Below, in pieces: positions 1 through 20,115 of a DNA stretch of 20,216 nucleotides. Under the pieces are notes generated by a model. The model saw only the letters and a program-made list of their open reading frames with translations, did not search any database and was not told the DNA's origin. This DNA comes from Calditrichota bacterium. Its GTDB lineage: Bacteria > Calditrichota > Calditrichia > RBG-13-44-9 > J042. The DNA lies in NCBI GenBank assembly GCA_013150955.1, contig JAADJD010000066.1, positions 1-20,216 of the forward strand. Reading direction: 5' to 3'. How positions within the stretch are numbered: position 1 is the stretch's first letter; every line of letters starts with the position of its first letter. The position numbers and the translations under genes were made by a program.

Positions 1-29
1 CGGCGGCAAAATGCCTGACGCTTGCACAT

Positions 30-3000
30 ATGGCACAGGATATTTTGAATGTCATACCTGCTACATACAGGGCAGAAGTTAATCTTTATGAAAAATTTCA
101 TCAAATTAATAAGAAGATTAACGAGATTAAGTCTGAAGTTTCAACTGCATCGGTGCTCAATAAGGCTCAATTATCTAATTATTTGAATAGCCAAATTCAG
201 CAATTAAAATCAGGCGATTCGGCTTCCGACGATGAGAAGGAGGATTTTTCTAATATTTCCATCCAAAGGTCTGCTGCTTCTAATGAAACAGAAAAAATGC
301 AGAACGTGTATTGCATAGCTGGAATGCATCGTTCGGGTACTTCCGTACTTGCCCATATGCTTAATGTGATGGGCTTGTTTTTAGGGGAAGAAGATGAGTT
401 ATTGCCACCAGCAAAAGATAATCCCGAAGGATTTTGGGAGAATATCAATTTTATAGCAATCAATGATGCCATTTTAAACCTGTTAAATGGGAGTTGGGAT
501 AACCCACCTGAATTTGCAATTCGTCCGGAACAGGACAAGGAACAATGGGTTTTGATTTCGCTTCAAGCAAAAGAAGTAATAGCCAAGTATCAAAACCTTT
601 TCTTATGGGGCTGGAAAGATCCCCGAAACTGTATAACCTTTCCATTCTGGAAAGCCCTGATTCCGAATCTGAAAACAATCATTATTTTCCGAAATCCCAT
701 TGATGTGGCTGCTTCCCTTCAAAAACGAGATGGTTTCTCATTAGAGAAATCATTGGATTTGTGGTTCAGATACAATTCCGCTCTCGTCAAAAATGTTTCA
801 AATTCAGCAATCTGGATACCTTATGAAGCCCTTTTGCTACGTCCAGAAGTAGTATTGGAACGTCTTTTGGGTTGGCTGAATTGGGATGTTGGGCATAAGC
901 AAATAAATGATGCAATAAATTTAATTCACAAAAAAGAAATTGATGTTCAAAAAATATTTGAGAATCATGAATTACCAGAATACATCGCTAATTTATATCA
1001 AAAACTGTGGGAATTTTCAATAATCCAGAAGGAAGAATTGATTGATAAAAAAGCTTCTGATCAATCCACTATTGCTTCCTTAAATAAGAAACTTTCTCCA
1101 AAAAATGAAGCGACCAGTAACGAAGTCGAGCAGTGCCCAGCCTGTGGGAGTCTGGCCACGCAGCGCGCGCGGTACACCGCCGATATCGTGACCTGTGTGG
1201 ATTGTGGATTGACCTACCTGCGTCGCCTGCCCGAGGCCAGTCAATTGAAAAATTTGTATGATCTGTACGCCGATGAATTCTCCCACATGCGCCTGCCCCG
1301 AAATCCCGAGGAAGTGAAACGCAGCCCGCTGCGCCGGGAAACATTCCTGGAAGAGATTGAGCCATTCGTAAAACGAAAGGGACGCATTCTGGATGTTGGA
1401 TGTGGCTGGGGCGCCTTCCTGGATGCCGCTCGTGACAAAGGCTTTGAACCTTTCGGTATTGAAATTACCCCATCGGCAGTCGAATATGCCAACAGCCAGT
1501 TGAAAATTCAGGTCGATTCCCGCCCCCTGGAAGAGCAATCCTTTCCACGGAACAGTTTTTCTCTGGTGACCATGAATCACGTACTGGAACATCTGCCCCG
1601 TACCCGGCAGGTGTTGAACAAGGTGTTCGACATCCTGGAGCCGGATGGCGTCTTTGCGGGAATGGTGCCCAATTTTGCCTCCTTCTGTTCGGAAATGGAA
1701 CGAGAGAGATGGGATTGGCTGGATCCCAATTTCCATTACGTCCATTTCACTCCAGAAACATTACGCGCCAATCTGGAAAAGGCCGGCTTCGTGATCGAGA
1801 AATTGTATACCACGCGAGGGGATTATTCCCTGCATCGCTTGAAGAATTGTGTGTACCAGAAGTATGGAAAGGTGACAGATGAGGAGTTCGAGCGAATTGT
1901 GCAGGAACTGGAAGCCGATGGCAGGGGGGAAGAAATTCGATTTGTAGCCCGCAAACCCGCCCGACCTATCCAGCCGGAAGAGCGACCGGAGTCCCGATCC
2001 CACCGCCAGCATCGTGCAACAAAGTCAAGCGAATCGGAGGTGGCGGTGCGTCAGCCCGAAGGCATCGCCCGCAAGCAAAAATCGCATGAAAAAATACCCA
2101 TTCAGGTTTCCATCATCATCCCGGTGTACAACCAGGTTGAATATACCCGCGTGTGCCTGGAAAAAATCTACCAGCACGCCGATCCAGACGTCACCTTCGA
2201 GGTGATTGTGGTGGACAACGCCTCCACCGATGAAACCCCGGCCTTCATGAAACAGGCGCAGAACATGTACCCCAATCTCACCTACATTCGCAGCGAAGAG
2301 AATTTGAAATATGCGGGTGGGTGTAACCTGGGGGCTCACAGGGCAAAAGGCAAGTATCTGGTCTTCTTAAACAACGATACCGAACCGGAACCGGGATGGT
2401 TGAAACAGGCCATTCGGGTGTTTCAGGAAGAACCCAATGTTGGGGTTCTGGGAGCAAAATTGTTGTATCCCGATCGCACCATTCAACATTGTGGAATCGA
2501 ATTTCAAAATTCCAAGATTGAGCACAATTTCATCTGGCCGTTCCATCGGTATCGCCATGCGAAGGAAGACAATCCGCTGGTCAATCGTCGAGAAGACGTC
2601 CATGCGGTTACCGGTGCGTGCCTGTTTATACCTCGCAAACTGTTTCAGCAGGTGGGCGGTTTCGACGAAAGTTACGGAATGTATTTCGAAGATACCGACC
2701 TGTGCTTTAAGGTGCGCAGGAAAGGGAAACGGGTGGTTTATGATCCCGACATCGTGGTCATTCACCACGAGGGGAAATCCACCGAAAACCTGGACAAGAT
2801 CCACGAGCTGAATCACAAAGCGGCAACGATATTTTACCAGAAATGGGAAGATGAACTGGTGGATATCGCGCTCGATGTTCTGCTGGAGAGGGTGGATGGC
2901 AAGTATCATTATTTTTCGGATTTCTTTTATCCCCGGGAATATAAAGAGGGGACGATTGTATTTTTGTACAAGTTGTTTAAACGATTGGGCAATTTCTATG

Positions 3001-5978
3001 CGTTTACGGGTGGCATAGGCGACGCGTTGCTGTTCCTTTCGACATTTTACGATTCAGTGGACGAGGCCACGGTGGTTTGTGCCCCCAACAATGTGGCAAC
3101 AGCACGGATTTTGTTTAATCAGTTTCCGAAAATCAAAAAGGTGTATTTCCTGCCGTTTCCCAATGCAAACGTGTGGCATTATACCCTGCGGAACCTGTGG
3201 TATAAATTGCCCAACTGTAAAGGGGTTGGGGTCACCCCGGCAGAATCCTACGAAAGCGACTGGAATGCCCGGCTGAATATTTTCCAGAAATACGGGGTGA
3301 AGGCACAACCGGATTGGATTCAGATGTTCCGTGGCAAGAAGATCACCGATTTTCAGGTGACCCTGCAGCCCAAGGGCAGCGTGCGGGGCATGGTGGGCAC
3401 CAAACGCAACATTATTCGTCCGCGGGACTGGCTGAAATTGCAAAAATATTTGATCGACAACGGCATTACCCCGGTGATACTGGGTGCACCGGATGAACGC
3501 GCCGTTTACCCGGCACTGGAAGGAGCGATTGACCGCCGAAGTTATAATTTGATCGAACAGATGGAATTGATTGCTTCCAGCGATGTGTTCATTGGTGCCG
3601 ATTCGTGGGGAAAGACGATGGCTGGACTGGCAGGCATCCCCACATTTGTTTTTCGATCCTGCCGTGGCAAAGATCTGCAGGGCTGGACGGATCCATCGGA
3701 GTTTGTGTTCATGCGTCCCTGGAAAAATATGGTCATCGTGGATACATTCGAAGAACTGATACAGCAGTTTCCCCGGCGGGTTGCCCGTCCCATGAAGGCG
3801 CTGGTGGATTATTCCAACTATCGGTTGCAAAAAACGGAAAACCTGTCGCCCTATTTTGAGGCACTGGTAAAGAACGATCAGATATTCCTGTGCCGACTGG
3901 CAGGCCTGGGCGATGTCCTGATGGCCTTTCCGCTGGCTCGCGCGCTGAAAAAGCAGTATCCGCATCTGGAGGTCAACTTCGTGACCGCTTATGCTTACAA
4001 ACACCTGGTGGATGCGAATCCGGATATTGATCGGTTTATCCCGCCGGAAGTGTATGGGGAATATCTGGTATTCGAGCCCTTTTCCGTCGATTTGAATCAG
4101 GGACGTTACGGGTATGCCACCAAACATCAGGTGGATGCGTTTCTGGAAGGATTGAATCTCCAGCTTTCCAATGAAGAAAAACACATTGAATTGAAGGTGT
4201 CCGCGGCTGCCGAGCGCACCGTGGAACAAAAATTTCAGGACATTATGTCTGCCTATCGCCGGAATGGTGCCCGCAGCTGGAACCGGGTGATCTTGCTGCA
4301 TCCTGCCAGGGGCGATGTGAACCGCACCTGGCCAAAGGAACGCTGGGAAGAGCTGGCCCGTCTGCTGGTAGGCAGTGGCAATCTGGTCATCATCGTTGGG
4401 AATTCCAGCGCCTCGCCCGATCGAGGCATTCACCAGCTGGATGTGGATGGGGTTTTTCATCTGGAAGATCAGCTATCCCCACTGGAATTTGTTGCCCTGT
4501 GCCGCAGAGCCGACGTGTTGATCTCCACCGACAGCGGCCCCATTCAGCTGGCGGGCGCTACCGACATTGCCATTGTAGGCATTTACTCCGTGGTGCGGGG
4601 GCGAAACCGGTTGCCTTACCGACATGGCGAACCGGGATGGAAGGCCGTCGCCGTGGAACCGTCCTGCCCCTTCAAAGGCTGTTACGAGAAAATGAATGAT
4701 GCGGCGTTTATGGAGCCGTATTTGAAAATGATTGAAAATGGACAGATTGCGCCAGCCACACTGTTTTCCCGCTGGTGTGTCCATCAGGATAAATATGCAT
4801 GTATGCGTTACCAGATCACCGTGGAGCAGGTGTGGGAAGCCCTGCAGCCCTTTCTGTTCTCCGAAACCGATAGCGCACGCCTGCTGGAAGAAGTCGATCG
4901 CTACCTGAAAATCCGCCGTCCCGATGAGGCGTTGAAGTTGCTGGAGAAAACCGTCTCCCGCGGCAATGCCGATGCCCGCGTCCTCCGGAAGTACATCGAA
5001 CTGCTCAAACAAAAGGGCGATCTGGTTAATTACATCCATTACCTGGAGCGCTATGTGGAAATGAATCCCGAAGATGCTACTGCCTTAAACGAGCTGGGCG
5101 TGGTGCGCTGGCAACAGGAACGGTTCGATGAAGCCATTGCCCTGTTCGAGAAAGCCGTGAGCTACAATGGCAATCATCCGGATCATATTAAAAACCTGGC
5201 CGATGCTTACCTGTCTCAGGAAGAATTCGAAAAGGCGATTCAGCTCTACGTTTATCTCATTCAGAAATATCCGGAGGACACGGAGGCCTATCAGCGACTG
5301 GCCATGTTGTATATCGAGAATGGGGATTATGACAGTGCGCGCTTGCTGCTGGATAAGGCGCTGGAATATCATCCAGAGGATCGTTACCTGCAGGACTGGC
5401 GGCGTTTGCTGGATACGCCGCGGGTGTATCTGGCGTATCAATTTATTAATGCCGGGGAGCTGGACACCGCCCGTGCGCTACTGGAAGAAGAGCTTACGGA
5501 GAATCCGGATCAGCTGGCCGCACGACTGGGCCTGGGCAGCGTGCTGTTTCACCAGGAGGATTACGCGGCGGCTAAAAATGTCTATCAACAAACATTGACA
5601 AAATACCCGGACAATGCCGAAGCTCTGTTCTATCTGGCAAAAATCCACCTCATGCAGGAAGATTGGCAGGGATTTGAAACGCTCCGTCAGGCGCATACGG
5701 AAGCCTTTCAGGCGGTTCCCGAGTTGCGCAAACTCTACATTCAGGCATTGATCGAAAAGGGGGATTTTGAACAGGCGCTGCGGGAGCTGGATCAATATCT
5801 GGAAGTGTTTCCCGAAGATGCCGATGGCTACATCATACTGGGAAATCTGTTTTACGAAGGCGGTAAGTCCCGGGAAGCCCTGAACTTTTACCACCGGGCA
5901 TTACAGCTGGAGCCGGAGAATGAAGACGTAAAAAGGATGGTGGAAAGTCTTTCCGGAGATGATTCTCCGCTGACCTGA
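30..5978 (+). CDS. Giant multidomain glycan enzyme: sulfotransferase - methyltransferase - GT2 - GT9-like x2 - TPR (probably 5'-partial)
   Basis: From the first ATG the product is 1982 aa; numbering starts there. Residues 1-90 are a polar, coil-like linker. Residues 92-340 are a sulfotransferase: PAPS-loop GMHRSGTS near 98, WGWKDPR near 193, and IIFRNPIDVAASLQKR near 217 (3'-phosphate site). Residues 369-650 are a SAM methyltransferase with a Zn-ribbon (CPACG 369, CVDCG 389), motif I ILDVGCGWG at 453 and NHVLEHL at 516. Residues 693-960 are a GT2 enzyme: VSIIIPVYNQ 693, VVDNAS 727, NNDT 781 and EDTD 887. Residues 985-1280 are a divergent GT9-like module (GGIGD 994). Residues 1285-1610 are a more typical one (GLGD 1292, STDSGP 1499). 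Residues 1640-1975 are TPR repeats. Domain roles come from family knowledge; the substrate is unknown, probably a cell-surface glycan. The frame is open to the left edge and no Shine-Dalgarno precedes the ATG, so the true start is probably outside the window. Base composition changes sharply near 1110. Confidence 0.9.
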   Translation: MAQDILNVIPATYRAEVNLYEKFHQINKKINEIKSEVSTASVLNKAQLSNYLNSQIQQLKSGDSASDDEKEDFSNISIQRSAASNETEKMQNVYCIAGMHRSGTSVLAHMLNVMGLFLGEEDELLPPAKDNPEGFWENINFIAINDAILNLLNGSWDNPPEFAIRPEQDKEQWVLISLQAKEVIAKYQNLFLWGWKDPRNCITFPFWKALIPNLKTIIIFRNPIDVAASLQKRDGFSLEKSLDLWFRYNSALVKNVSNSAIWIPYEALLLRPEVVLERLLGWLNWDVGHKQINDAINLIHKKEIDVQKIFENHELPEYIANLYQKLWEFSIIQKEELIDKKASDQSTIASLNKKLSPKNEATSNEVEQCPACGSLATQRARYTADIVTCVDCGLTYLRRLPEASQLKNLYDLYADEFSHMRLPRNPEEVKRSPLRRETFLEEIEPFVKRKGRILDVGCGWGAFLDAARDKGFEPFGIEITPSAVEYANSQLKIQVDSRPLEEQSFPRNSFSLVTMNHVLEHLPRTRQVLNKVFDILEPDGVFAGMVPNFASFCSEMERERWDWLDPNFHYVHFTPETLRANLEKAGFVIEKLYTTRGDYSLHRLKNCVYQKYGKVTDEEFERIVQELEADGRGEEIRFVARKPARPIQPEERPESRSHRQHRATKSSESEVAVRQPEGIARKQKSHEKIPIQVSIIIPVYNQVEYTRVCLEKIYQHADPDVTFEVIVVDNASTDETPAFMKQAQNMYPNLTYIRSEENLKYAGGCNLGAHRAKGKYLVFLNNDTEPEPGWLKQAIRVFQEEPNVGVLGAKLLYPDRTIQHCGIEFQNSKIEHNFIWPFHRYRHAKEDNPLVNRREDVHAVTGACLFIPRKLFQQVGGFDESYGMYFEDTDLCFKVRRKGKRVVYDPDIVVIHHEGKSTENLDKIHELNHKAATIFYQKWEDELVDIALDVLLERVDGKYHYFSDFFYPREYKEGTIVFLYKLFKRLGNFYAFTGGIGDALLFLSTFYDSVDEATVVCAPNNVATARILFNQFPKIKKVYFLPFPNANVWHYTLRNLWYKLPNCKGVGVTPAESYESDWNARLNIFQKYGVKAQPDWIQMFRGKKITDFQVTLQPKGSVRGMVGTKRNIIRPRDWLKLQKYLIDNGITPVILGAPDERAVYPALEGAIDRRSYNLIEQMELIASSDVFIGADSWGKTMAGLAGIPTFVFRSCRGKDLQGWTDPSEFVFMRPWKNMVIVDTFEELIQQFPRRVARPMKALVDYSNYRLQKTENLSPYFEALVKNDQIFLCRLAGLGDVLMAFPLARALKKQYPHLEVNFVTAYAYKHLVDANPDIDRFIPPEVYGEYLVFEPFSVDLNQGRYGYATKHQVDAFLEGLNLQLSNEEKHIELKVSAAAERTVEQKFQDIMSAYRRNGARSWNRVILLHPARGDVNRTWPKERWEELARLLVGSGNLVIIVGNSSASPDRGIHQLDVDGVFHLEDQLSPLEFVALCRRADVLISTDSGPIQLAGATDIAIVGIYSVVRGRNRLPYRHGEPGWKAVAVEPSCPFKGCYEKMNDAAFMEPYLKMIENGQIAPATLFSRWCVHQDKYACMRYQITVEQVWEALQPFLFSETDSARLLEEVDRYLKIRRPDEALKLLEKTVSRGNADARVLRKYIELLKQKGDLVNYIHYLERYVEMNPEDATALNELGVVRWQQERFDEAIALFEKAVSYNGNHPDHIKNLADAYLSQEEFEKAIQLYVYLIQKYPEDTEAYQRLAMLYIENGDYDSARLLLDKALEYHPEDRYLQDWRRLLDTPRVYLAYQFINAGELDTARALLEEELTENPDQLAARLGLGSVLFHQEDYAAAKNVYQQTLTKYPDNAEALFYLAKIHLMQEDWQGFETLRQAHTEAFQAVPELRKLYIQALIEKGDFEQALRELDQYLEVFPEDADGYIILGNLFYEGGKSREALNFYHRALQLEPENEDVKRMVESLSGDDSPLT
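303..1050 (+). other. Sulfotransferase module of the giant enzyme
   Basis: This encodes residues 92-340. The 5'-phosphosulfate loop (GMHRSGTS) and the 3'-phosphate-binding strand (IIFRNPIDVAASLQKR) are intact, as is the WGWKDPR motif common in bacterial glycan-associated sulfotransferases. The DNA is AT-rich (20 of 60 bases G/C at 541-600), unlike the rest of the gene (41 of 60 at 1141-1200). I infer that this module was joined to the methyltransferase-glycosyltransferase part by recombination. Confidence 0.75.
4860..5960 (+). other. TPR repeat tail of the giant enzyme
   Basis: Residues about 1640-1975 form consecutive 34-residue helix-turn-helix units. They show TPR spacing, for example ALNELGVVRWQQERFDEAIA, AYQRLAMLYIENGDYDSARL and GYIILGNLFYEGGKSREALN, each followed by a hydrophobic helix ending in P-E/P-D. 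Such tails bind protein partners or scaffold glycosyltransferases. The C-terminus is a short acidic end (GDDSPLT). Confidence 0.8.
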
Positions 5979-6515: not shown

Positions 6516-8990
6516 TTATGCGTTGGCGTTATCGTTGTCGTTGCCCTCTTCCTCCGGTTTGGGGGCGGGTTTATCCGCAGTTTTCTTTTTATTTTCACCA
6601 GAAATTTTCTTGCGGAAGGCATCAGCCCGTTTGGCCAGTTTTTTCAGGTTCTGTTCCACCCGATAATAAATCGTGTTCCGCGGAAATCGTCCCCGCCGAT
6701 CACGCTCCCCTGCAGGCATGCCGGTTAAAATCTCCAGCCCATCTTCCACCGTATCGATGGCCCAGATGTGAAACTTCCCTTCGGCAACCGCCTGAATGAC
6801 TTCATCTTTAAGCATCAGATGATCCACATTGCTGCGAGGAATGATGACCCCCTGCTCTCCGGTCAGCCCTTTGGCCTGGCAAACCCGGTAGAATCCCTCG
6901 ATCTTTTCGTTTACGCCACCAATGGCCTGTATTTCGCCGTTTTGATTCACCGAACCAGTCACCGCAATGCCCTGTTTGATTGGCACTTCGGCCAGACTGG
7001 AAATCAGGGCAAAAAGCTCCGTGGAAGATGCGCTATCCCCGTCAATCACCGAGTAACTTTGTTCAAACGTTAAACTGGCCGAAAAAGACAGCGGGATGTG
7101 ACTGCCAAATTTGGAGTTAAAGAATCCGCTGAAAACGTAAACGCCTTTGTCGTGAATTTTACCGCTCAATCGGGCCTTGCGCTCAATGTGCACCACCTGT
7201 TCGTTGCCTATGTAGGTTTTCGCGGTGATGCGGTTGGGTCGACCAAAGCTGTAGTTGCCCACGTTTAAAACCGCCAGACCATTAATCTGCCCCACGGCCT
7301 CGCCATCCACCTGAATGCGGTAGATATCTCGCTCGATCATTTCCTGGATCTTTTCTTCAATCATGTTGTGGCGGTATTCATATTCCGAAATGGCTTTCCG
7401 CACGTGCCCTGCCGATACCACCGGTTGTCCATCCTGCTGTGCCCAGTAGGACGCTTCCCGAATGATACCCACAATTCGACCAAACTGCAGGGAAATTTTT
7501 TTCTGATCCTCCACCAGCCGATGCCCGTACAGGATCACCTCCCGTACTGCGCTGCGATCGAAGGGCAACAGGTGTTCCTCATCCACCACTTTCTTGATGA
7601 ACCGTGCATACTGGTGAATGGTGTGTTGGTCGGAATGGGTTTCGTAGTCGAAGTCGGCGCGGATTTTGAAAATCTTGGAAAATTCCTCGTCATACGCCTG
7701 GAGCAGGTAGTAAATCAGGCTGGAACCGATCAAAACCACCTTCACATCCAGGGGAATCGGCTGGGGTTTGATGACTGCGGAAGAGATGAAGCCGTAAAGT
7801 TCAGACACATCTTCGATACGGATTTCCTTGTTTTTGATGGCGCGTTTCAGCGCGTCGTATACAAATGGATTTTTCAGGATCTGATACGCATCTACCATCA
7901 AGTAGCCCCCATTGGCGCGCAGCAGGCTACCCGCTTTGATCATGGTAAAATCGGTTAAATACGTGCCAAACACGGCGTATTTTTCGATGCGGCCGATCAG
8001 ATTATTGTAGGTGGGATTGGTTTCGTAGATCACCGGTGCACCGGTTAAATGACGATTATCCACTACCACATTCACCTTATAGCGTTTGAAGTGCGAACGC
8101 CGTTCCAGATCCACCGGTGGTTTTTGCTCTTCCTTCTCCACTTCGGAAAGAAATTCATTGATGTTGTTTATAATGTCGCGCGAGACGTTGTCCAGGTATC
8201 GCAGGATTTGCGCATGATCGCGGTATTTTTCCTTCAATTCGTTCACGTATTGTTCGGTAACGAAACTGGCCACACGTTCATTCAGGGTGTTCAACGATTT
8301 TTGCGCCTCCATGTCCATGCGGGTGAGTGCCCGCACGGTTTCGGCAATTTTATTTTCCAGCATTTGAATGCGCCGGCTGATTTCTTCCTTCTCCTCTGGC
8401 GCCAGCTTTTCGTAATCTTCTGGTTTTATGGGTTTGCCATCTTTTAAAATGATGGTCTGGAAGCCCATGGGTGTACTTTGAATTTGCAGTCCCAGCCGCT
8501 TGGCCTCTTCGTCCAGCTGTTGAATTAACTTCCGCTTCTGTTCGTTGGTGCGGTTGATGATGATCATTTTCTGTTCATCGTAATTTTCGCTGGAAAAGGC
8601 GCGTTTAATTTCCCGTTTCAGCGTGCTGATCAGCTGATCCATATCCCACTGGAATTCTTTGCCCATGCCCGCCGGCAAATGAAACGCCTCCGGGGAGTCA
8701 GGATCGGTGAAGTTGTAAACATAGACCCAGTCGCTGGGCACCGGACGTTTTTCGGCAAAGCGGTTCAAAATGTCCTTTACAATGGTGGTGCGTCCGGTAC
8801 CGGATGCGCCGGTCACAAAAATATTGTAACCGGAGGATTGAATGCCCAGTGCCAGCTCCATGGCACGCAGCGCCCGATCCTGACCAATCACCGTTTCCAG
8901 CGCCGGTAAATCCTGGGTGGTTTCGAACGGAAAACTCTCCAGGGGAAAATGCTTCTTTAATTGTTCGGGTTTCAGTTCTGTGATGGACAT
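6516..8990 (-). CDS. Lon-like ATP-dependent protease (AAA_32 / Lon_C type)
   Basis: This 824-aa cytoplasmic protein has an N-terminal ATPase and a C-terminal Lon-type peptidase. The P-loop is GASGTGRTT at 61-69, with Arg where classical Walker A has Lys; I recall GTGRTT as usual in this subfamily. A Walker-B-like stretch, GGYLMVDA, has Asp at 367. Residues about 145-290 are a charged coiled-coil insert. The peptidase keeps GDSASS (Ser653) and GGVNEKIEG (Lys696). Their 43-residue spacing equals that of the E. coli Lon Ser-Lys dyad, so it should be catalytically active. Classical LonA has a different N-domain; this resembles the separate family of Lon-related putative proteases. The tail (about 780-824) is Lys-rich, then acidic, ending EEEGNDNDNANA. 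It is transcribed divergently from the yceD-fab operon. Upstream of the ATG only a weak GGGA is visible as a ribosome site. Confidence 0.93.
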   Translation of the reverse strand: MSITELKPEQLKKHFPLESFPFETTQDLPALETVIGQDRALRAMELALGIQSSGYNIFVTGASGTGRTTIVKDILNRFAEKRPVPSDWVYVYNFTDPDSPEAFHLPAGMGKEFQWDMDQLISTLKREIKRAFSSENYDEQKMIIINRTNEQKRKLIQQLDEEAKRLGLQIQSTPMGFQTIILKDGKPIKPEDYEKLAPEEKEEISRRIQMLENKIAETVRALTRMDMEAQKSLNTLNERVASFVTEQYVNELKEKYRDHAQILRYLDNVSRDIINNINEFLSEVEKEEQKPPVDLERRSHFKRYKVNVVVDNRHLTGAPVIYETNPTYNNLIGRIEKYAVFGTYLTDFTMIKAGSLLRANGGYLMVDAYQILKNPFVYDALKRAIKNKEIRIEDVSELYGFISSAVIKPQPIPLDVKVVLIGSSLIYYLLQAYDEEFSKIFKIRADFDYETHSDQHTIHQYARFIKKVVDEEHLLPFDRSAVREVILYGHRLVEDQKKISLQFGRIVGIIREASYWAQQDGQPVVSAGHVRKAISEYEYRHNMIEEKIQEMIERDIYRIQVDGEAVGQINGLAVLNVGNYSFGRPNRITAKTYIGNEQVVHIERKARLSGKIHDKGVYVFSGFFNSKFGSHIPLSFSASLTFEQSYSVIDGDSASSTELFALISSLAEVPIKQGIAVTGSVNQNGEIQAIGGVNEKIEGFYRVCQAKGLTGEQGVIIPRSNVDHLMLKDEVIQAVAEGKFHIWAIDTVEDGLEILTGMPAGERDRRGRFPRNTIYYRVEQNLKKLAKRADAFRKKISGENKKKTADKPAPKPEEEGNDNDNANA

Positions 8991-16293: not shown

Positions 16294-16450
16294 CAGATTA
16301 TGCATTCGCCTACGAATGACACGAATGAACACCAATAAAAACAATAAAATGCAATTGATGCTATCTGGATGAAAATGTTTTCCCGGATATATTCGCAATT
16401 TTGTTGATTTTTTTCGAATTCATTCGCGTGATTCATGGTTTAACGCTTTT
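16294..16450 (+). repeat. MITE-like palindromic repeat, copy B
   Basis: This matches 6131-6287 at 145 of 157 positions with no gaps and in the same orientation. The right end keeps the inverted-end pattern (TTCATTCGCGTGATTCATGG then TTTAACGC). The left side keeps the inner half site (ACGAATGACACGAATGAACA from 16312) but lacks the outer terminal repeat present in copy A. It lies in the gap between rnc and wecB and contains no credible gene. The remaining 127 bp to wecB show only a weak promoter-like pair (TTGCCC 16533, TGTAAT 16557). Confidence 0.75.
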
Positions 16451-16568
16451 TGGGGGGTTCAATTTTTCATCCGTTTTTCCCACCACGTTTTCCTCCCCAG
16501 ATCTGAAGATGATTTATGCCTTGCGATATATATTGCCCCGGTGTAAATTTTGCACTTGTAATTTGAAC

Positions 16569-16573
16569 GAGGA
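16569..16573 (+). promoter_or_regulatory. Ribosome binding site that fixes the wecB start
   Basis: GAGGA lies 4 bases before the ATG at 16578. The frame is open back to 16401, inside repeat copy B, but those 59 codons read repeat DNA and leader sequence. Similarity to the epimerase begins at MKRILNVVGARPNF. Confidence 0.65.
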
Positions 16574-16577
16574 CTCC

Positions 16578-17672
16578 ATGAAAAGAATTTTGAATGTGGT
16601 TGGTGCACGGCCGAATTTTATGAAGATTGCTCCCATCCACCGGGCAATGAAGAAATTTGATTCCGAGTTCGAACCCATCCTGGTGCATACCGGTCAGCAT
16701 TACGATGAACGCATGAGCAAATTATTTTTCGAAGACTTGCAGCTTCCCGAGCCCGATATATACCTGGGTGTTGGTTCCGGAAGCCATGCCGAGCAAACGG
16801 CAAAAATCATGCTGGCATTCGAAAAAGTGGTGCTGGATACCGAACCGGATCTGGTCATCGTGGTGGGTGATGTTAATTCCACCGTGGCCTGCAGTCTGGT
16901 GGCTGCAAAATTGTGGGTGCCAGTGGCGCATGTGGAAGCGGGATTGCGCAGTTTCGACCGACGCATGCCGGAAGAGATCAATCGACTGGTAACGGATGCA
17001 CTTTCTGACTACCTGTTCACCACCGAAAAAAGCGGCAACGAAAATTTGATGCGCGAGGGCATTCCCGCTACCAAGATCTATTATGTGGGAAACGTCATGA
17101 TCGATTCCCTCATTTTTTTTCTGGAAAAGGCACGCAAATCCAACATACTGGAACAGCTGAAACTGGAGCCACAGGGATTTGCCCTGGTCACTTTGCACCG
17201 GCCCTCCAATGTTGACGATCCGGAAAATTTTAAGAAAATACTGGACGCATTCGAAGAAATTCAAAAGGATATCCCAATTATCTTTCCCGTACATCCCCGA
17301 ACAGAAAAAAATCTGAACCACTTTGGCCTTCAGGATCGGGTGGCGAACATTCCCAATTTGAGGATCATTCCTCCGGTGGGGTATCTGGACTTTATGCAGC
17401 TCATGCAGAACAGCAAATTTGTGATGACCGATTCCGGCGGCATTCAGGAAGAAACCACCTATTTGCGCATACCGTGTTTAACCATCCGGGAGAATACCGA
17501 ACGACCGGTAACTGTGGAGCTGGGCACCAATGAGCTGGTTGGCACCGACACGCAAAAGATTATCCGGAATGCCAGAAAAATTTTAGCCGGTGAATGGAAA
17601 AAAGGTGCCGTCCCCGAACTCTGGGATGGCCACACCGCTGAGCGTATTGTGAAAATTTTGAAGGGAGATTGA
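16578..17672 (+). CDS. wecB: UDP-N-acetylglucosamine 2-epimerase (non-hydrolysing)
   Basis: This 364-aa cytoplasmic enzyme interconverts UDP-GlcNAc and UDP-ManNAc, supplying ManNAc or ManNAcA for surface polysaccharides. It starts MKRILNVVGARPNFMKIAP, typical of the family. Asp98 (VVGDVNST), Glu120 (HVEAGLRS), the MPEEINR motif at 130-136 and His207 (VTLHRPSN) match the catalytic and UDP-binding positions of the E. coli enzyme. The SGGIQEE motif near the C-terminus binds UDP. Its stop codon directly abuts the next start (TGAATG), so it is cotranscribed with the exporter gene. No dehydrogenase (wecC) is visible here. Confidence 0.95.
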   Translation: MKRILNVVGARPNFMKIAPIHRAMKKFDSEFEPILVHTGQHYDERMSKLFFEDLQLPEPDIYLGVGSGSHAEQTAKIMLAFEKVVLDTEPDLVIVVGDVNSTVACSLVAAKLWVPVAHVEAGLRSFDRRMPEEINRLVTDALSDYLFTTEKSGNENLMREGIPATKIYYVGNVMIDSLIFFLEKARKSNILEQLKLEPQGFALVTLHRPSNVDDPENFKKILDAFEEIQKDIPIIFPVHPRTEKNLNHFGLQDRVANIPNLRIIPPVGYLDFMQLMQNSKFVMTDSGGIQEETTYLRIPCLTIRENTERPVTVELGTNELVGTDTQKIIRNARKILAGEWKKGAVPELWDGHTAERIVKILKGD

Positions 17673-18890
17673 ATGAAAGTCCCCGTTTGGCTGTTTCTCC
17701 TTGTTTTCTGTATCAATGTGTTTTCGCAGGAAGCCCGCACTACCGAAGAGCGGGCCCGTGTTTTTGACATTGATTTACAACAGTTGGAGAAAACGAACGA
17801 GCAGATCATCCCTCAGCGGCAGTTATTGGAGCAGGCGCTGGAAAGGCAGATCGATTCCACGACCTATATTGTGGGGCCGGGAGATCAATTATTGCTGAAG
17901 ATCTGGGGGGTTATGGAGACCCAGTTTATCACCGAGGTCACGCCAGAAGGTTTTGTGATTATTCCAGGCATATCCCAGGTCTATGTCGCCAACGAAACCC
18001 TTGCGGAAGCCAGTAAAAAAATCCGTCAGGCCCTGGCTCAATCTTTTAAAAATTCCCGATTTACCGTTCGGTTGCTTCGATTGCGCAAATTTAAAGTATT
18101 TGTTGTTGGAGAGATTGAAAATCCGGGAACGTATTACCTGAGGGCGTCGGATCGCGTGAGTGACGCCATTCAATTGGCAGGGGGATTAACCAATTGGGGA
18201 GATGATACTCGCATTCAGGTTCGACATTATAATGGGCGGGTGGATACAATCAATATTAGCGAATTTTACCTGACGGGGAATTTGAATGAGAATCCACACC
18301 TGAATGGTGGCGATGTTATCTATGTCCCGCCGATCGATCTTAAAGAAAACTATGTGATCATTGAAGGGAATGTGGGTTCCCAGGGCGTATATCAAATCCT
18401 CCCCAACGAGACCTTATATGAATTTTTAACCCGCTTGCAGGCCATCAACCGCCGATCGGATATTGAAAATATTGTATTAATTCGCGGTACAGAAAAGAAA
18501 TACTACAATCTGTTAAAAAGCGAAACCCGCGCCAGGGTGGAAATGCTACAGACCGGCGATCGCATAATCATCCCATCGACGCGGGAAATGGTTTATGTTA
18601 AAGGAGAAGTCACTCAACCAGGGCCCTATCCCTATCTGGCAAATTACACTGCTTTGGATTACGCCGGGTTTGCCGGTGTGCTGGAGACGGCCAAATCATT
18701 AAAAGACATAATGGTTATCCACACCCGAACCGGCAAGGTAGAGAAAGGCGCCGATGTCATTGTGGAGAAAGGGGATATTGTAATTGTACCCCGAAGGAAT
18801 CGTGAATTGTTAAAAGATTATTTAGCAATAATCACCCCAATTATTAGTCTTGGAATTAGTGCATATGCATTAATTCGAGCGGCCAGATGA
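17673..18890 (+). CDS. Polysaccharide export protein (Wza-like, Poly_export plus SLBB)
   Basis: This 405-aa envelope protein has an N-terminal signal peptide (MKVPVWLFLLVFCINVFS, cut probably before QEA). A Poly_export domain begins near 64 (YIVGPGDQLLLKIWG). Three SLBB-type folds follow at about 140-195, 227-285 and 307-372, each opening with a strand and a G-x-V/I...PG turn. The last 24 residues form a hydrophobic helix (ITPIISLGISAYALI) and a basic end. Wza-type proteins form the outer-membrane channel for capsule or exopolysaccharide. No lipobox is visible (the cysteine follows VF), unlike E. coli Wza, so it may not be a lipoprotein. GGGAG precedes the start by 5 bases. Confidence 0.92.
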   Translation: MKVPVWLFLLVFCINVFSQEARTTEERARVFDIDLQQLEKTNEQIIPQRQLLEQALERQIDSTTYIVGPGDQLLLKIWGVMETQFITEVTPEGFVIIPGISQVYVANETLAEASKKIRQALAQSFKNSRFTVRLLRLRKFKVFVVGEIENPGTYYLRASDRVSDAIQLAGGLTNWGDDTRIQVRHYNGRVDTINISEFYLTGNLNENPHLNGGDVIYVPPIDLKENYVIIEGNVGSQGVYQILPNETLYEFLTRLQAINRRSDIENIVLIRGTEKKYYNLLKSETRARVEMLQTGDRIIIPSTREMVYVKGEVTQPGPYPYLANYTALDYAGFAGVLETAKSLKDIMVIHTRTGKVEKGADVIVEKGDIVIVPRRNRELLKDYLAIITPIISLGISAYALIRAAR

Positions 18891-18933
18891 GGTTTGATAA
18901 ATATGGCCATTAAAATTTTGAGGATATAATTCT

Positions 18934-20115
18934 ATGAATAAACAAAACATGATGGAAAATCAAAGAAAAGTACAGAAGAAAGCATTCACCTGGGCAGATT
19001 ATTTTTTAATCATTTTAAACTGGCGTAAATTTATTTTAGTCAACTTTATTGCAATTTCTATCTTGACATTTGTTGTCGTATCGTTAATGCCTAAAATTTA
19101 CTTTAGTAAGACGGTGGTCATCCCCTCAACCCAGGAAATGTCAGGTGCCTATCCGGGGCTTCTGAATATTTCAAGAATGTTAGGTTTTGTGGGAGGAGCA
19201 GGCGCACAACCGGAGATTTTTAAATATATATCAATTTTAAAAAGCAGAACCCTTCAGGAAGAGGTGATAAAAGAATTTGATTTAATAAATGTATATAAAG
19301 TTCCAAAAAAATCGATGGAATTGGCTTTAAAAAGATTGAATCAAAATGTTGTTATTAAAATTAATGATGAGGGGGCTTTGGTGATAGGCGTATTGGATGA
19401 AGATCCTCAAAGAGCTGCCGATATTGCTAATTTTTTTGTGAAAAAATTACATGAATATAATACACGAATAAATATTACAGAGGCTAAGGCAAAAAGAGAA
19501 TTTTTAGAAAAACGTTTATTACAAAATGAATTGGATTTGAGCCGGTTAGAGGAGAAAATTAAGGAACTGCAGGAAAGTTCTGGTTTAATAATGGGGACTG
19601 GACAGACTTTGGGTTCTGTGGAAATGATTGCGGAATTGTACGCGAGAAAAACGTTAAAAGAAATGGAAATTGAGCTTTATAAAAAAACGTTGGATGAAAA
19701 TAACCCTAAATATCATCAAGCATTGATTGAGTTAGAAATTATTAACAAGCGACTTGAAAATGTGCCCCAGGAAACGATTGATGCCTTACGGGTATATCGA
19801 GAGTATTTAATTCAACAAAAGATTCGAGAATTGTTGATGCCTATTTACGAACAGGCACGATTGGAAGAAATTCGAGATACCCCAACCGTTATCGTATTGG
19901 ATCCTGCGGTTCCAAGTGAACTGAAAGCTAAGCCAAAAAGGTTAAGAATAACAATTGCAATGGGTTTTGTAGGGCTGATTTTGTCAATTTTGTATGCAAT
20001 TTTTACAGAGCGATTTCGAATGATAAAGTCGGAAGATGATGAAAAGGCGAGAAAAATTATAGAAATTGAACGCATTATTAAAAACACCATACCTTTTGTA
20101 CGATCACGAAAATGA
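18934..20115 (+). CDS. Wzz-type polysaccharide co-polymerase / chain-length determinant
   Basis: This 393-aa inner-membrane protein has one helix near each end (about 33-52 and 340-359) and a large periplasmic, coiled-coil-rich middle, the Wzz/PCP architecture. A proline-containing DPAVPSELKAKPKR segment sits just before the second helix, as in this family. The cytoplasmic C-terminus is short and has no Walker motifs, so the tyrosine-kinase domain of Wzc-type PCP-2a proteins is absent. The DNA is strikingly AT-rich (14 of 60 bases G/C at 19261-19320) compared with wecB. GAGGA lies about 9 bases before the ATG. It overlaps the next gene by an ATGA stop-start. Confidence 0.88.
   Translation: MNKQNMMENQRKVQKKAFTWADYFLIILNWRKFILVNFIAISILTFVVVSLMPKIYFSKTVVIPSTQEMSGAYPGLLNISRMLGFVGGAGAQPEIFKYISILKSRTLQEEVIKEFDLINVYKVPKKSMELALKRLNQNVVIKINDEGALVIGVLDEDPQRAADIANFFVKKLHEYNTRINITEAKAKREFLEKRLLQNELDLSRLEEKIKELQESSGLIMGTGQTLGSVEMIAELYARKTLKEMEIELYKKTLDENNPKYHQALIELEIINKRLENVPQETIDALRVYREYLIQQKIRELLMPIYEQARLEEIRDTPTVIVLDPAVPSELKAKPKRLRITIAMGFVGLILSILYAIFTERFRMIKSEDDEKARKIIEIERIIKNTIPFVRSRK

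Follow-up and report, generated by a model that had tools for sequence, protein, structure and literature searches.

The first gene of the window, the stretch of 20,216 nucleotides analysed here, is likely to encode a cytoplasmic, TPR-guided, multi-enzyme synthase of a flagellin glycan that would act in the manner of FlmG from Caulobacter crescentus. The protein is real and coherent, and I regard it as a probable variant of the flagellin glycosylation machinery, in which modules have probably been replaced within the gene. The window is the entire contig C42 of a 66-contig, 4.07 Mb genome (G000), and the reading frame of the gene (3-5978, forward strand) is uninterrupted for 1,991 codons and extends beyond the 5' end of the contig, so that this length is a minimum and the N-terminus lies beyond the DNA that was read. 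An earlier sequence-only reading gave a chain of at least 1982 residues from the ATG at position 30, but this ATG is not a demonstrated start. No other contig end in the genome matches the first 130 bases of the window. The gene comprises the following features:

3..5978, forward strand: giant open reading frame, partial, with the order sulfotransferase (ST) - ribbon/methyltransferase (MT) - GT2 - GT9-like module (GT9L) - GT9 - TPR; its 5' end is absent at the contig start
1..1109, no strand: stretch rich in AT (GC 0.37), putatively the right-hand end of an island acquired by horizontal transfer
315..887, forward strand: sulfotransferase module, Sulfotransfer_3, with GMHRSGTS at nt 321 and RNPIDVAAS at nt 690
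1134..1802, forward strand: CxxC...CxxC ribbon and SAM methyltransferase, Methyltransf_23, with DVGCG at nt 1392
2109..2837, forward strand: GT2 glycosyltransferase, with NNDTEP at nt 2370 and FEDTD at nt 2685
about 2982..3791, forward strand: GT9-like module 1 (GT9L), predicted heptosyltransferase fold, with GGIGDALL at nt 3009 and GADSWGKT at nt 3594
3900..4862, forward strand: GT9 module 2, Glyco_transf_9, with AGLGDVL at nt 3900 and STDSGP at nt 4524
4875..5942, forward strand: C-terminal TPR array seen as TPR matches, proposed by analogy with FlmG to be the flagellin-binding part

In a Pfam scan all modules except GT9L exceed the curated cut-offs: Sulfotransfer_3 with 41.3 bits (cut-off 27), Methyltransf_23 with 86.6 bits (cut-off 27), Glycos_transf_2 with 106.7 bits (cut-off 23.3) and Glyco_transf_9 with 39.1 bits (cut-off 22), which places the second GT9 module in the GT9 family, in addition to many TPR matches. 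GT9L has no Pfam or NCBIfam match, hence no GT9 profile membership, and its sequence profile finds no match in the PDB. Its AlphaFold2 model (pLDDT 74, pTM 0.79) does resemble the heptosyltransferases WaaF and WaaC in a fold search (Z 14.6, rmsd 3.8-4.1, 230-236 residues), as well as TibC (Z 13.1), and the module as modelled is GT9-like in fold, not a profile member of the GT9 family. WaaC, WaaF and TibC, which thus share the predicted fold of GT9L (Z 13-14.6), stand alone as enzymes and act on LPS or an autotransporter, whereas GT9L and GT9 are fused modules here; by sequence, the second GT9 module belongs to the WaaC/WaaF-type GT9 family. The proposal of five enzymatic modules and a TPR tail in one chain, for which domain searches and structure prediction had been suggested as a check, is thereby borne out in a single open frame, by Pfam for ST, MT, GT2, the second GT9 and the TPRs and by a predicted heptosyltransferase fold for GT9L. 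Only this first GT9-like module had been excepted from those keeping active-site motifs. It keeps GGIGDALL (the GGxGD motif) and GADSWGK, with key residues invariant in four homologues, and at the level of motifs the doubt therefore appears unfounded.

The core from MT to TPR is collinear in two other genomes, with 74% and 64% identity, and the codon-position composition of the giant frame keeps to one frame throughout. A frameshift joining two genes was therefore rejected as unlikely. In the nearest genome, G001 of the same genus, the MT-GT2-GT9L-GT9-TPR core (74% identity) is preceded by partial MT, GT2 and TPR modules where the window has ST. Two genomes of the same family show further orders, GT2-MT-ST-TPR-MT-GT2-GT9L-GT9-TPR in G003, where ST precedes the same MT within a single frame, and ST-GT2-GT9L-GT9-TPR, without MT, in G002. 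From these orders it follows that the core is a real unit, that ST recurs and that the N-terminal part is variable; between lineages, replacement affects the N-terminal part, and conservation is confined to the C-terminal core. The architecture had been considered unrecognised, and indeed no paper describing this type of protein was found in the open-licence literature searched. However, the order is neither unique nor fixed, as the proposed search for it elsewhere recovers it in G003 with TPRs inserted, and the N-terminal modules vary. Directly upstream of the ST-containing giant gene of G002, and slightly overlapping its listed frame, lies a sulfatase gene (L052:1-1365; PF00884, SGSH_C), whose product is a possible desulfation partner.

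An alignment scan with the core, using one genome per GTDB species, yielded ten loci, and those outside the family include metagenome-assembled genomes (MAGs) labelled Syntrophobacterales, Syntrophales, Ignavibacteria, Neomarinimicrobiota and Verrucomicrobiia. An Ignavibacteriae MAG also holds a single frame of 4,531 aa (L113:6356-19951) with at least four GT2-like stretches, which adjoins a WbsX glycosyltransferase. In a tree of GT2 modules, that of the window groups with G001 and G003 (support 100/99) and lies loosely near G002 and sequences from Ignavibacteria, Verrucomicrobiia and Syntrophobacterales. Giant glycosyltransferase proteins of the class range from about 860 to over 3,000 residues, and several contain ST modules.

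The association with flagella emerges from these relatives. By gene coordinates, 12 genomes of the class (G006, G010, G017, G018, G021, G022, G024, G027, G029, G031, G033 and G036) encode a giant multi-glycosyltransferase protein on the same strand as flgL and 0.1-11 kb downstream of it, and in many genomes a GT2-TPR protein is next in line. Among 40 class genomes, scored for flagellin (PF00669) and, in the best four candidates per genome, for a giant relative at E <= 1e-30, a relative is present in 24 of the 27 flagellin-positive genomes and in none of the 13 flagellin-negative ones (Fisher p = 4.7e-8, uncorrected for kinship); three flagellin-positive genomes have none at this threshold. The sole match in a flagellin-negative genome (G008), a 287-codon frame with MT only, was not counted as a giant relative. 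Within the class, the giant protein is thus found only where flagellin is present. Outside the class, genes with the GT2-GT9L pair lie near flagellin, FliS and FliD in an Ignavibacteria MAG, near FlaG and FliD in a Neomarinimicrobiota MAG, and near flagellin in a Syntrophobacterales MAG. As its relatives adjoin flagellum genes, the most likely role of the giant protein is to attach sugars to the flagellum. The sequence-only reading had left the target as a surface glycan or glycoprotein; its idea of a synthase is supported, and comparative genomics points more narrowly to flagellin.

In G017, which I take to be probably Caldithrix abyssi, a giant ST-ST-GT2-GT4-GT2-TPR protein (1,852 aa) follows flgF, flgG, flgA, flgH, flgI, flgK and flgL. 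A full flagellar gene set is reported for Caldithrix abyssi (PMC5317091). Like the window protein, that of G017 unites ST, GT2 and TPR modules in a single polypeptide, but it is encoded directly in the flagellar operon behind flgK-flgL and has two STs, a GT4 and two GT2s, while MT, GT9L and GT9 were not detected in it.

The window gene lacks the flagellar neighbourhood seen in many relatives: it is on C42, and the filament genes of G000 are on C12, namely flgK, flgL, fliW, a GT2-TPR protein, two flagellins and fliD. As the gene lies apart from them, flagellin is only its presumed target. A search for a giant gene in the flagellar locus itself (C12:4000-23900) found only this GT2-TPR protein (519 aa; L084:11871-13430 on C12), located between fliW and the two flagellin genes, whose homologues have the same place across the family and, in other families, come after the giant gene. 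In G001 the giant gene is preceded by MerR-DegT, ATP-grasp and methyltransferase genes, and in G024 DegT, ATP-grasp and methyltransferase stand in the same order between flgL and the giant gene. This agreement suggests that a flagellar glycosylation cassette was relocated. Convergent with the giant gene, the window contains a gene for a LonB/LonC-like AAA protease (6516-8990, reverse strand). About nine genes, mostly for fatty-acid synthesis, separate the giant gene from UDP-GlcNAc 2-epimerase (Epimerase_2) and SLBB/Poly_export genes about 10 kb downstream (16401-18890); the polysaccharide genes here (16401-20115) also include one for a chain-length-regulator-like protein of 393 aa with no Pfam match at 1e-5.

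In Caulobacter crescentus, the TPR part of FlmG binds flagellin and its glycosyltransferase part glycosylates it in the cytoplasm (PMC7591256). The giant protein has in common with FlmG a TPR array and a glycosyltransferase part in one polypeptide, and by analogy it may likewise carry out cytoplasmic O-glycosylation of flagellin. However, FlmG has 596 aa, one GT-B module and N-terminal TPRs (PMC7591256), whereas in the giant protein the TPRs are C-terminal and the enzymatic modules, MT and ST among them, number at least five; the likeness I propose is one of working, not of family membership. Flagellin glycosylation loci of Enterobacteriaceae contain GT2 and GT41 enzymes, in some cases as fusions with methyltransferase domains, and form islands of low GC that are horizontally exchanged and variable between strains (PMC4875605). 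These islands hold one to three glycosyltransferases each (PMC4875605), in contrast to the giant multi-module gene of the window, which stands apart from the flagellins and has the border of replacement inside a gene. The text of PMC4875605 contains no word starting with 'sulfo' and no 'multidomain', and the open-licence papers searched for flagellin together with sulfotransferase or multidomain glycosyltransferase describe no such protein type.

I propose that the glycan is built on flagellin in the cytoplasm, before export. The C-terminal TPRs would hold the flagellin, as in FlmG, while the GT2, GT9L and GT9 modules would add sugars one after another, in an order and with identities that I likewise infer; the methyltransferase module would modify a sugar, and the PAPS-dependent sulfotransferase module would put sulfate on a sugar or on the protein. 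The giant protein may act beside the smaller GT2-TPR protein encoded between fliW and the flagellin genes. Around a conserved C-terminal core, lineages would exchange N-terminal modules and the sugar genes beside the giant gene through horizontal transfer, and the glycan would change with them. This proposal is supported by the linkage to flgL and the co-occurrence with flagellin in the class, by the flagellar neighbours of core relatives in three other groups, by the agreement in gene order between G001 and G024, and by the presence in G000 of two flagellins with flgK, flgL, fliW, fliD and the GT2-TPR gene. The example of FlmG as a fusion that binds and glycosylates flagellin (PMC7591256), the methyltransferase fusions and low-GC exchange of enterobacterial flagellin loci (PMC4875605), and the conservation of the core while the N-terminal part was replaced support it as well.

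A probable replacement shows in the base composition. Inside the giant frame, GC shifts from 0.37 to 0.52 at about position 1109, just before the MT ribbon and at a module border. In G001 an Iso_dh dehydrogenase gene lies upstream of the giant-gene cassette, and its counterpart in G000 (91% identical) is found near the start of contig C36, pointing to it. GC on C36 is 0.38 up to position 2933 and 0.50 thereafter; the low-GC part (1-2933, L102) encodes a 441-aa CTP_transf_3-RraA (cytidylyltransferase-RraA) fusion and a Capsule_synth protein truncated where the contig ends. It probably belongs to the same island as window 1-1109 and forms its far part, with the order C36-C42, across an unread gap, suggested by synteny. 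G001 has normal GC over the corresponding stretch, and a search of the G000 genome found no counterpart of its N-terminal modules and ATP-grasp gene. All this is most simply read as the arrival of a low-GC cassette that took the place of both the upstream sugar genes and the N-terminal portion of the giant gene; one of its borders would then fall within the gene, and modules were probably swapped in by horizontal transfer. Alternatively, the first 1.1 kb may have been misassembled onto the rest, in which case the sulfotransferase would not be part of the protein; the contig does begin within the giant gene, and the jump in GC falls exactly on the module border. However, the reading frame is maintained across the join, the Iso_dh contig ends in equally low-GC DNA facing the giant gene, as a true island would, ST precedes GT2-GT9L-GT9 in G002, and a single frame in G003 independently places ST ahead of this MT, which makes a false join of ST and MT very improbable. 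Frameshift and misassembly, which had been named as fatal to the single chain, are thus both unlikely.

The main rival to a role in flagellin glycosylation is that the giant protein assembles a repeat unit of capsule, exopolysaccharide or LPS and that its TPRs merely hold partner enzymes. The epimerase and Poly_export genes downstream would fit such a role, as would the genes for Capsule_synth and the cytidylyltransferase on the presumed upstream stretch, and multi-module fusions of methyltransferases and glycosyltransferases are known in polysaccharide pathways, for example WsaE. These neighbours count against a flagellin synthase, as do the distance of the window gene from the flagellins, the lack of a strongly supported grouping of its GT2 with the flgL-linked GT2s of the class, and the three flagellin-positive genomes without a match. 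However, the intervening fatty-acid genes, the absence of giant relatives from all flagellin-negative genomes of the class and the flagellin or filament-cap genes beside relatives in three other groups speak against the polysaccharide role, which I consider unlikely. Within the flagellin reading there is also the question of what is sulfated. The ST module has the Sulfotransfer_3 profile, the PAPS-binding loops and the fold of a PAPS-dependent sulfotransferase, and a search of the genome for APS kinase, needed to make the sulfate donor PAPS, found it (G000:C43:69327-69776, 245 bits). A phmmer search of the PDB with the single ST sequence gave no match, whereas its profile matched protein-tyrosine sulfotransferases (E 2.2e-10), and the best matches of its predicted structure (pLDDT 87) are the human tyrosylprotein sulfotransferases TPST1/2 (Z 13-14, 20-22% identity; top match Z 14.1, rmsd 4.0 over 173 residues, 22% identity). 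This resemblance, closer than that to known glycan sulfotransferases, counts against sulfation of the glycan and would agree with sulfation of flagellin tyrosines by a protein sulfotransferase fused to a glycosylation machine, which is compatible with the flagellin glycan synthase; each flagellin of G000 has four tyrosines. However, other sulfotransferases, including heparan sulfate ones, match as well (Z 10-11.7), so that the acceptor, sugar or tyrosine, is not readable from the fold, and ST occurs here only among glycosyltransferase and methyltransferase modules; I consider tyrosine sulfation quite unlikely. Of the earlier claim of glycan sulfation, the sulfotransferase module therefore stands, with the glycan as no more than a possible target, as the nearest solved structures are protein-tyrosine sulfotransferases.

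The known flagellin glycosylation systems named here for comparison consist of one enzyme or of several small, separate ones, whereas giant proteins seem to unite much of the machinery in this class. More tentatively, Calditrichia and some unrelated bacteria might possess giant assembly-line proteins that bind flagellin, build a whole modified glycan and, in the manner of polyketide synthases, diversify it by intragenic exchange of modules, sulfation being one of the exchangeable steps. If true, assembly-line glycosylation of proteins would gain a model that can be tested, sulfation of bacterial flagellin would have a possible example, and the engineering of glycoproteins could draw on modules that can be interchanged.
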